Positions 24,139 to 34,287 of a DNA stretch of 64,000 bases are shown here, one piece after another. The position numbers and the translations under genes are program-made. This DNA is from Candidatus Rokuibacteriota bacterium. Its GTDB lineage: Bacteria; Methylomirabilota; Methylomirabilia; Rokubacteriales; CSP1-6. How positions within the stretch are numbered: position 1 is the first letter of the stretch; each line of letters starts with the position of its first letter. The notes beneath the pieces are model-generated. The model made no database searches. It saw only the letters and a program-made list of their open reading frames with translations, and had not been told where the DNA came from. Location: NCBI GenBank assembly GCA_016866775.1, contig VGLJ01000004.1, positions 62,001 through 126,000 on the forward strand. Reading direction: 5' to 3'.

Positions 24139-25107
24139 ATGGCCAGCAAGATCCTCTTCTGCCCGAAGCAGCCGCCCGTCATCATGGAGCTCGTGCACAA
24201 GCTCACGCCGGCCGGCTTCGAGCTGATCCCGGCCGACGTCGACACGCCGGAGTTCTACGAGGCCGCCGCGCAGGCGGAGTACTATCTCGGCTTCGCGCGA
24301 CGGATGGGCAACGAGTTCTTCCGCGCCGCGCCGAATCTCAAGCTCGTCCAGCTCACCAGCGCGGGCTACGACCAGGTCGATCCGGAGGCGGCGCACAAGG
24401 CGAAGGTGCCGGTCTCGAACAACGGCGGCGCCAACGCCATCGCCGTGGCCGAGCACGCGATGATGCTGATGCTCGCCGTCTACAAACGCGTGGTGCAGTT
24501 CCACAACCACATCGTCGCGGGCAACTGGCGCGTCGGCAACCCGGCGGACATCCGCGTGCACGAGCTCTCGGGCGCGACGCTCGGCATCGTGGGCCTCGGC
24601 AACATCGGCAAGAAGGTCGCGCGCCGCGCGAAGGCGTTCGACATGAAGGTGCAGTACTACGACATCAAGCGGCTCACCGAGGACCAGGAGGACGCGCTGG
24701 GCGTCCGCTTCGTGCTCTACGACGAGCTGCTGCGCACGTCCGACGTCGTCAGCCTCCACGTGCCGCTCGACGACACCACGCGCAAGATGATCGGCCCGCG
24801 CGAGCTCGCCATGATGAAGCCCGAGTCCATCATCATCAACACGTGCCGCGGGCCCGTCATCGACGAGGACGCCCTCCACGACACGCTGAAGGCGGGCAAG
24901 ATCTTCGGCGCCGGCCTCGACGTGATGGTGGAGGAGCCGCCGTCGCCCAAGCACAAGCTCTTCTCGCTGCCGAACGTCATCTTCACGCCGCACAGCGCCG
25001 GCCCGACGTGGGAGAACTACATCGCGCGGTTCCGCAACGGCTTCGACAACATCCAGCGGGTGGCCTCGGGCCGCGCGCCGCTCTGGGTCGTCGCGGGGCA
25101 AGAGTGA
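24139..25107 (+). CDS. D-isomer 2-hydroxyacid dehydrogenase
   Basis: A 322-residue NAD(P)-dependent enzyme that interconverts 2-hydroxy and 2-oxo acids. The nucleotide motif is G-I-V-G-L-G-N-I-G (about residue 152). The catalytic Arg is in N-T-C-R-G-P-V-I-D-E-D-A-L, Glu in the following A-G-L-D-V-M-V-E-E-P-P segment, and His in F-T-P-H-S-A-G. The residues after the second strand (Y-Y-D-I-K-R) suggest NAD. It begins 10 bases after the cupin stop (AAGGAGCC site) and overlaps the next dehydrogenase as GTGA. In this operon it probably reduces or oxidises an imported 2-oxo or 2-hydroxy acid. Confidence 0.9.
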   Translation: MASKILFCPKQPPVIMELVHKLTPAGFELIPADVDTPEFYEAAAQAEYYLGFARRMGNEFFRAAPNLKLVQLTSAGYDQVDPEAAHKAKVPVSNNGGANAIAVAEHAMMLMLAVYKRVVQFHNHIVAGNWRVGNPADIRVHELSGATLGIVGLGNIGKKVARRAKAFDMKVQYYDIKRLTEDQEDALGVRFVLYDELLRTSDVVSLHVPLDDTTRKMIGPRELAMMKPESIIINTCRGPVIDEDALHDTLKAGKIFGAGLDVMVEEPPSPKHKLFSLPNVIFTPHSAGPTWENYIARFRNGFDNIQRVASGRAPLWVVAGQE

Positions 25108-25904
25108 CGATCCCGGACGACTGGGGGCTTTCGGGCAAGGTCGCGATCGTCACCGGAGGCGGTGCTCACGGCGACGGCATCGGCAACGGCCGTGCCGCCG
25201 CCATCCTGCTGGCGCGGGCGGGCGTGAAGGTGGTCGTCGTCGATCGTGACGGCGGCCTCGCCAAGCGCACCGTCGAGATGCTCCAGGAGGCCGGCGGCGA
25301 GGGCATGGCCTTCGAGGCCGACGTCACCAGGAGTGCCGATTGCGCCGCCATGGTCGCCGCCGCGGTCCAGCGGTTCGGCGCGCTCCACCTCCTCGACAAC
25401 AACGTCGGCATCGGCAGCCGCGGCTCGGTGGTTGACGAGAGCGAGGAGGCGTGGCGCCGCGTCATGCAGGTGAACGTGGAGAGCATGTTCCTCTCGTCCA
25501 AGCACGCCATCCCGGCCATGCGGAAGGCCGGCGGCGGCGCCATCGTCAACGTGTCCTCGATCTCGGCCATCCGGCCGCGCGGGCTCACGACGTACACGGT
25601 CTCGAAGAGCGCGGTGATCGGGCTCACGAAGGCCATGGCGGTCGACCACGGCAAGGACGGCATCCGGGTGAACTGCGTGGCCCCGGGCCCGGTCTACACG
25701 CCGATGGTCTACGCCGGCGGCATGTCCCCGGCGGCGCGCGAGACACGCAAGAACGCCTCCACGCTCAAGGTGGAGGGCACCGGCTGGGACATCGGCGCCG
25801 CCGTCCGGTTCCTCCTCTCCGAGCAGGCGCGCTACATCACCGGCCAGGTCCTCGTGGTCGACGGCGGCACGTCCCTGACGGCCCCGGAACGGGACTCCCG
25901 ATAG
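25104..25904 (+). CDS. Short-chain dehydrogenase/reductase
   Basis: A 266-residue SDR with a GTG start overlapping the upstream stop. The cofactor motif is expanded, T-G-G-G-A-H-G-D-G-I-G-N-G; V-V-V-D-R-D points to NAD. The usual N-N-A-G reads N-N-V-G. The active residues are S-S-I-S and Y-T-V-S-K, with the C-terminal V-D-G-G. The N-terminus V-T-I-P-D-D-W-G-L-S-G-K-V fits relatives acting on hydroxyacids or polyols. It sits between the 2-hydroxyacid dehydrogenase and MmgE/PrpD. Confidence 0.85.
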   Translation: MTIPDDWGLSGKVAIVTGGGAHGDGIGNGRAAAILLARAGVKVVVVDRDGGLAKRTVEMLQEAGGEGMAFEADVTRSADCAAMVAAAVQRFGALHLLDNNVGIGSRGSVVDESEEAWRRVMQVNVESMFLSSKHAIPAMRKAGGGAIVNVSSISAIRPRGLTTYTVSKSAVIGLTKAMAVDHGKDGIRVNCVAPGPVYTPMVYAGGMSPAARETRKNASTLKVEGTGWDIGAAVRFLLSEQARYITGQVLVVDGGTSLTAPERDSR

Positions 25905-33173: not shown

Positions 33174-33755
33174 ATGGCCAACGAGCGGGGACTCCTGCCG
33201 AAAGCGCGGCGCGAGGATCTCGACGACCACCTGCAGCGCCAGCTCCAGCGCTGGTACGCGAACGCGTACAAGGACGACAACCTCTTCCTGACGATGGCGC
33301 GCCGGCCGGGCCTTCTCGACGCCACGTGGAGCTTCATCAAGTACATCTACGGCGGGGGCTCGAGCGTCGAGCCGGAGCTCTTCGAGCTGGTGCGGGTGAA
33401 GCTCGCCTGGAACAACCGCTGCGTGCACTGAAGCCTCGCGCGCTCCTCCTCGGCCGTGAGCCGGGGCGCGACGGAAGACCTGGTGGCGAAGCTCGCGGAC
33501 TACGAGCAGTCGGACCTGCCGGAGCGCACGAAGGTCGCGCTGCGCTTCGCGGACCGGATGACGGGCCCCGCGCCGACCACGCTGGGTCCCGCGCTGGAGG
33601 CGGAGCTCAAGCAATATTTCACCGAGGACGAGATCCTCGACCTCGGAATGACGATCGGGTTCGCGAGCGGCTGGCAACGCTTCATCGAGGCGGTCGGCAT
33701 CGTGCCCGACCGGTGGACGGACGGCGCACCTCCGCCGTTCCGGCCGCTCGACTAG
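33174..33755 (+). CDS. CMD/AhpD-like protein, probable selenoprotein (C-V-H-Sec)
   Basis: 193 residues if TGA 33429-33431 is read through. The part before it ends E-L-V-R-V-K-L-A-W-N-N-R-C-V-H. The part after it continues in the same frame as S-L-A-R-S-S-S-A-V-S-R-G, then A-T-E-D-L-V-A-K-L-A-D-Y-E-Q-S-D-L-P-E-R and on to a normal end. Together this is one carboxymuconolactone-decarboxylase/AhpD-like domain. Relatives have C-x-x-C here, so the TGA stands exactly at the second cysteine, residue 86, giving C-x-x-U. A hairpin with a GU-containing loop lies just downstream. The protein would be a thiol/selenol peroxidase-type redox enzyme. ATG 33174 was chosen because the putative -10 is five bases upstream and no ribosome site exists. 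If Sec is not inserted, the gene is a nonsense pseudogene. Confidence 0.75.
33437..33470 (+). promoter_or_regulatory. Bacterial SECIS-like hairpin
   Basis: CCTCGGC (33448-33454) pairs with GCCGGGG (33460-33466), seven pairs including one G-U, around the five-base loop CGTGA. A lower CGCG/CGCG pairing can extend the stem after a bulge. The loop has the GU typical of bacterial SECIS elements, about 25 bases after the TGA, within the usual distance for SelB binding. Confidence 0.6.
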
Positions 33756-33828
33756 GGCACTCGCGGAGGGCCCGGATTATTCCGGGCCCGCAGCGTCGGG
33801 GGCGTGGGGAGGTCGTCTCGGGCCCCCC
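33756..33828 (+). repeat. Dispersed palindromic element, copy 1
   Basis: It begins at the base after the CMD stop with GGCACTCGCGGAGGG. The main hairpin is GGGCCCGGA (33768-33776), loop TTAT, TCCGGGCCC (33781-33789), then G-C-A-G-C-G and a second, degenerate GTCTCGG palindrome. The same arrangement occurs on the minus strand at 52926-52996 with paired base changes. It probably ends transcripts of the CMD gene and of the convergent nucleotidyltransferase, whose last codons lie inside it. Confidence 0.65.
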
Positions 33829-34287
33829 ATCTTCGACAATCGCGCGATGTCGGCGATGTCCTTCGGCCGGCCCGTCGCCGCCTTGTTCTTCAGGAGCGCG
33901 TCGCGTCCGATGAAGAAGACCGTGCGACCGTCGACCTCGGCGTCCACCCGAGAGGCCCACGCTTCGTCGAAACCGACGCCCGAGAGACTCCGTGAGCAGA
34001 TCGATGCGGCGCGGCGGAAGTCCCAGCTGAGAGACCATCCCCGCCTGTTCGAACTCCGCGGCGGTGACGCCCGCGGCTTGCAGCGGCGCGCCGAAGCGTC
34101 GCAAGGCTTCGAAGACGCGTCGGGCATTGTCCTCGGAAGGCCGGACGAAGACGTCGATGTCGCCGCTGGCCCGGGGAGCCCCATGGAACGCGAGCGCGTA
34201 GGCACCGACGACGAGGAACTCGACACCGAGATCAGCGAGAAGGACGAGCAGGTCGCGAAAATCCTCGTTCAGGCCCTCAAGCGTCAT
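33777..34287 (-). pseudogene. Nucleotidyltransferase with one-base frameshift
   Basis: Starts M-T-L-E-G-L-N-E-D-F-R-D-L-L-V-L-L. The catalytic core is intact: V-G-A-Y-A-L-A-F-H-G, then P-R-A-S-G-D-I-D-V-F-V with the D-x-D pair. Near 33990 one extra base breaks the frame after R-I-D-L-L-T. The other frame resumes S-L-S-G-V-G-F-D-E-A-W and ends with the family C-terminal motif F-I-G-R-D-A-L-L-K-N-K-A-A-T-G-R-P-K-D-I-A-D-I. The final tail is encoded by the palindromic element. The upstream small gene overlaps by 11 bases, as in a toxin-antitoxin-like pair. A single indel may be an assembly error. Confidence 0.7.

Follow-up and report, generated by a model that had tools for sequence, protein, structure and literature searches.

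This locus raises the question whether the TGA that interrupts an otherwise open reading frame is decoded as selenocysteine (Sec) or whether it ends or breaks the gene. The frame lies in the window, i.e., the whole stretch of 64,000 nucleotides that was analyzed. Standard annotation would split or discard such a gene. Judged from comparisons at the sequence level, it is almost certainly a genuine bacterial selenoprotein gene, in which the UGA at codon 86 would specify Sec. The features concerned are:

33174-33755, forward strand: predicted selenoprotein gene of the AhpD/CMD superfamily, 193 amino acids with Sec, TAG stop
33429-33431, forward strand: putative Sec codon TGA in place of the second Cys of the C-x-x-C motif, assigned from TGA in 25 of 25 orthologues and from the Cys that distant relatives and PDB homologues have here

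Conservation of the reading frame and of the TGA

The frame runs from an ATG at 33174 to a TAG at 33753-33755, and its translation contains a single in-frame TGA, at residue 86, within the redox motif C83-V84-H85-U86. The original prediction had described one TGA in an otherwise open frame, with both halves in the same frame and the TGA at the second Cys of a C-x-x-C motif. Start, TGA and stop all lie where it had placed them, 33174-33755 translates as one 193-residue frame, and relatives carry Cys in the column concerned. The base composition is of the coding type on both sides of the TGA; in a six-frame scan of the whole window, the residue-86 TGA ranks first in this respect, with a GC3-GC2 margin of 0.44 vs. 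0.34 for the runner-up, which lies in a short reverse-strand frame. The C-terminal half of the protein is conserved and contains invariant residues, e.g., GWQRFI.

Orthologues were sought with a version of the protein in which Cys was written at position 86, so that Cys forms were, if anything, favored. When one genome was scanned for each species, 21 relatives were obtained, and TGA was found in all 19 of them that cover residue 86. Further orthologues came from a phylum search in 95 genomes, and the removal of duplicates left 25 distinct orthologues, the window gene counted among them. None of these has Cys at codon 86. The other 24 are 41-86% identical to the window protein and are encoded by Rokubacteria, Acidimicrobiales and other Actinomycetota, one Chloroflexi MAG and one Desulfobacteraceae MAG. 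They form a single clade in a maximum-likelihood tree (support 100/99). Cys does occupy the Sec column in distant homologues, i.e., PA0269 and plasmid-borne AhpD proteins of Sphingobium, Novosphingobium, and Sinorhizobium, which confirms the Cys/Sec exchange that had been anticipated at this residue. One Rokubacteria orthologue (L073, on G070:C88), which is 53% identical, groups with the Acidimicrobiales and not with the other Rokubacteria (100/98); horizontal transfer and an old paralogue are candidate readings of this placement.

The window sequence alone is compatible with a pseudogene or with a sequencing or assembly error, with the TGA arising from nonsense mutation or from the miscalling of a Cys codon, and the lone hairpin discussed below is statistically ordinary. 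However, the exact TGA is common to 25 orthologues from independent assemblies, which excludes sequencing error or decay, and the coding composition and the conservation of the protein persist downstream of the TGA. The chance that the gene is a pseudogene or an artifact is therefore negligible. Global reassignment of UGA was also rejected, since TGA is the ordinary stop codon of most neighboring genes checked; moreover, 33174-33755 is the sole well-supported gene in the window with a TGA interruption. A nucleotidyltransferase-like gene on the reverse strand at 33682-34287 is spread over two overlapping frames, one for its N-terminal part and one (33777-34226) for its C-terminal part, which suggests a frameshift near 33980. 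Unlike the gene with the TGA, it looks broken.

The host genome (5.13 Mb in 159 contigs) is 97.5% complete with 1.6% contamination. It was searched for the Sec machinery, as had been proposed together with the prediction, which named the absence of selB or selC as the finding that would speak against a selenoprotein. All four components were detected over their cut-offs:

Contig C43, 30823-32703: selB, on the same strand as selA and the tRNA-Sec gene, 380.8 bits
Contig C43, 32741-34093: selA, on the same strand as selB and the tRNA-Sec gene, 592.3 bits
Contig C43, 34974-35067: tRNA-Sec with anticodon UCA, on the same strand as selA and selB, 70 bits
Contig C31 (G000:C31, L059), 24695-25639: selD, 335.5 bits, over the NCBIfam cut-off

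The first three are clustered within about 4.3 kb. Across the bacterial family, 51 of 57 genomes have selA over its cut-off, so that the presence of the machinery is not due to contamination. The selD gene itself contains one in-frame TGA, and its product is probably a selenoprotein too. Together with the Cys/Sec exchange and the invariable TGA, the machinery supports the earlier interpretation of the locus as a probable selenoprotein gene.

The hairpin downstream of the TGA

Insertion of Sec, which we infer here, would be directed by a SECIS element within the coding region. A candidate is present:

33448-33466, forward strand: bacterial SECIS-like hairpin with a 7-bp stem and the 5-nt loop CGTGA, G at loop position 2, assigned from orthologue comparison and the published bSECIS model

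This is the seven-pair hairpin with a CGTGA loop that had been described downstream of the TGA. CCTCGGC pairs with GCCGGGG, with about -11 kcal/mol for the hairpin alone. Its stem starts 16 nt and its loop 23 nt downstream of the TGA, and it fits the published bacterial SECIS model (PMC13188914).

Folding of the 47-nt region 33429-33475, which had been suggested as a check, gave no support as long as the single sequence was considered: the fold is no better than that of shuffled sequences (z = -0.65), and the minimum free energy (MFE) structure is a different, longer pairing than the proposed hairpin. Against synonymous resampling, the mean z is about -0.8. Single-sequence RNA folding was therefore rejected as proof of a SECIS element. 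Comparable hairpins (6 bp or more, with GU in the loop) follow 78 of the 1334 TGA trinucleotides in the window (about 6%); the DNA is 70% GC here, and such hairpins are not rare. Rfam gave no match at gathering scores in the whole window. Thus, the earlier argument that random nonsense would hardly hit this one position and be followed by such a hairpin holds for the position of the TGA but not for the hairpin alone. Weak when read from one window, the putative SECIS element becomes convincing solely through the comparison of orthologues.

A hairpin of the same definition follows the TGA in 25 of 25 orthologues, vs. 4.3 expected under synonymous resampling, figures that do not amount to a formal probability because the orthologues are related. 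Four-fold degenerate sites were compared in a set made up of the window gene plus nine orthologues from Rokubacteria that are 72-79% identical to it. At these sites, third positions are identical in 85% for codons 87-99 and in 92% for codons 92-104, vs. 55% upstream and 58% downstream in the gene, and this peak at the hairpin points to purifying selection on the RNA. The stem positions are invariant or nearly so, whilst loop position A33459 varies between A, C, and G, a variation that leaves the proposed stem unaffected, whereas it would break up the competing MFE structure in several sequences. The orthologues from Acidimicrobiales, Desulfobacteraceae, and one of the Rokubacteria have another stem sequence, located a few nt nearer to the TGA, but the 7-bp stem is kept. 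In the seven sequences that were aligned, the loop is GTT or GGT, 100% of the cells pair, and both partners have changed in two of the pairs; when the partner is slid by 1-3 columns, pairing drops to 12-51%.

These data also bear on the possibility that the UGA terminates translation or is decoded as Trp or Arg, the functional product being a truncated protein of 85 amino acids or two pieces, the second of them restarted at the GTG at 33456. A downstream frame of 99 amino acids does begin with a GTG, and some termination is to be expected at Sec UGA codons in general. However, the genome encodes the full Sec machinery, the relatives have Cys and not Trp or Arg at this residue, the conservation of the hairpin exceeds coding needs, and the TGA falls inside a conserved helical hairpin bearing the active site, which a stop would split. 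Termination or read-through with an ordinary amino acid is, therefore, very improbable. In the favored reading, SelA and SelD would supply the tRNA-Sec, and SelB together with this tRNA (UCA) would decode the UGA at codon 86 as Sec, directed by the SECIS hairpin.

Protein family and putative activity

Knowledge of AhpD-like and CMD-like selenoproteins with a CxxU motif dates from the Sargasso Sea survey (PMC1088965); the AhpD-like ones (COG2128 YciW/TIGR01926) are also listed in later work (PMC9312934, PMC13188914). The window protein shares with the AhpD-like group the AhpD/CMD fold, the CxxU motif, the bSECIS-like element just downstream, and a YciW/TIGR01926-like domain. It differs in that it scores 34 bits with TIGR01926, for which the cut-off is 81.8; it thus appears related to these peroxidase-related enzymes but is not a member by the cut-off rule. 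Its best NCBIfam match, over most of its length (residues 9-176), is NF053654 (GroundWater_YciW, "YciW-related (seleno)protein"), but with 47.6 bits vs. a cut-off of 310, it is not a member of this equivalog either. With the CMD-like selenoproteins, it shares CxxU and the Pfam CMD domain PF02627, found at 23.1 bits, just above the gathering score of 23, whereas its full-length similarity is to YciW/AhpD-like proteins and not to decarboxylases.

An AlphaFold2 model (pLDDT 83.6, pTM 0.82) gave Foldseek matches at probability 1.00 to the AhpD-like structures 2prr (E 6.9e-6), 6k40, 3c1l, 2oyo, and PA0269. Hence, both the PF02627 domain and the AhpD-like fold that characterize the AhpD/CMD superfamily are present. 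PA0269 (PDB 2o4d/2ijc) is a clear match in sequence and fold, whereas M. tuberculosis AhpD (1gu9) gave no significant overall fold match because its topology differs (PMC3141380). Both share with the window protein the two-helix active-site motif with the spacing E-12-C-2-H/Y-1-C-4-x. The relay of M. tuberculosis AhpD consists of Glu118, Cys130, His132, Cys133, and His137 (PMC3141380); the residues at the same spacing in the window protein are E71, C83, H85, U86, and R90. Apart from the Sec codon, they are encoded at:

33384-33386, forward strand: Glu71, equivalent of AhpD Glu118, invariant
33420-33422, forward strand: Cys83, putative resolving Cys, equivalent of AhpD Cys130, invariant
33426-33428, forward strand: His85, equivalent of AhpD His132, invariant
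33441-33443, forward strand: Arg90, at the position of AhpD His137; Arg, with Lys in two members

Invariance refers to an alignment of 19 sequences with Sec written as Cys, in which U86 is invariant as well. Four of the five relay residues (Glu, Cys, His [Tyr in PA0269], Cys, and His) are thus kept, with Sec replacing Cys133, but the complete relay is not present, as Arg90 stands in the place of His137 of AhpD and His55 of PA0269. The confidence of the model is low at residues 90-96, so that Arg90 can be placed in the active site only tentatively. Other Sec-containing CMD paralogues also commonly have Arg here.

The product would be an all-helical thiol/seleno-oxidoreductase of the AhpD fold (CMD superfamily, TIGR01926/YciW-like). 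Sec86, as a selenolate at neutral pH, would most likely attack a peroxide or a similar oxidized substrate, after which Cys83 may resolve the intermediate to a selenenylsulfide that could be re-reduced by a cellular dithiol. Glu71 and His85 would form the proton relay, with Arg90 in the place of AhpD His137. Peroxide is the default substrate by homology, and a peroxide or thiol-disulfide redox activity is somewhat favored. Another electrophile might be used instead, as Arg or Lys stands in for the relay His and none of the neighbors is conserved that could point to a substrate.

An enzyme that contains Sec but reduces, e.g., a halogenated or other electrophilic organic compound, like the CMD-fold debrominase Bmp8, is an unlikely alternative. 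Bmp8 (6ohi, 6ohj) is among the structural matches, although weaker than those above and weaker still in sequence; the Arg or Lys at the His137 position implies an altered relay, and the further CMD genes of the host described below suggest divergent substrates. However, the Arg is shared by many Sec-containing paralogues, and no dehalogenation or catabolic gene is conserved next to the gene. The gene's neighbors, among which Pfam identifies a luciferase-like monooxygenase, a glyoxalase-like protein, and an amidohydrolase, are not conserved beside the orthologues, and prediction of function from operon context was rejected. A broader version of this idea is rather doubtful: an AhpD-fold enzyme that apparently always has Sec, and whose relay is modified by Arg, would act on a non-peroxide substrate (e.g., in reductive dehalogenation) and be one of at least 11 CMD selenoenzymes in a lineage that diversified the fold mainly as selenoproteins.

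Other CMD-family genes of the host and of the phylum

The family of the window gene is apparently a new, Sec-only subfamily of the already known AhpD-like selenoproteins. It differs from these in its CVHU motif, in the Arg or Lys replacing the relay His, in the lack of a Cys form among 25 orthologues, and in its occurrence in soil and freshwater MAG lineages. In Rokubacteria and Acidimicrobiales, no NCBIfam model matches the subfamily over its cut-off. A literature search on selenoproteins of Rokubacteria retrieved passing mentions and no describing paper in the library searched.

The most notable aspect is the scale of the apparent use of CMD selenoproteins in Rokubacteria. At least ten further CMD-family genes of the host genome have an in-frame TGA at the CxxU position (once SxxU, once NxxU):

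Host genome G000, loci L043, L044, L046, L047, L051, L055, L057, L095, L096, and L097: additional genes of the CMD family, each with a likely Sec codon

Their motifs are CFDU, CRYU, CHYU, CPFU, CEYU, CDYU, SAYU, CAYU, CHRU, and NTHU; the resolving Cys is missing in two of the ten. In each, the TGA is followed by a hairpin that agrees with simple bSECIS constraints. For these ten, the assignment draws only on the motif, the coding composition, and the hairpin of the individual gene. In the phylum search, the closest CMD matches (E <= 1e-10) that span the site number 68, of which 66 contain an internal TGA, as counted by hand with three partial matches left out and with the position of the TGA checked only in the loci that were read. 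With at least 11 CMD-fold genes with a likely Sec codon in one genome, this hints at a possible dependence on selenium, and the Rokubacteria of soil may need selenium for a whole enzyme repertoire.

Double-Sec proteins, which rows with two TGAs in the phylum search might have indicated, were rejected: in the loci read, the counts include the gene's own terminal TGA stop. The two site-spanning relatives among the 68 that have no internal TGA (G084:C108:15446-15844 and G059:C141:84755-85183) are candidate Sec-to-Cys conversions.
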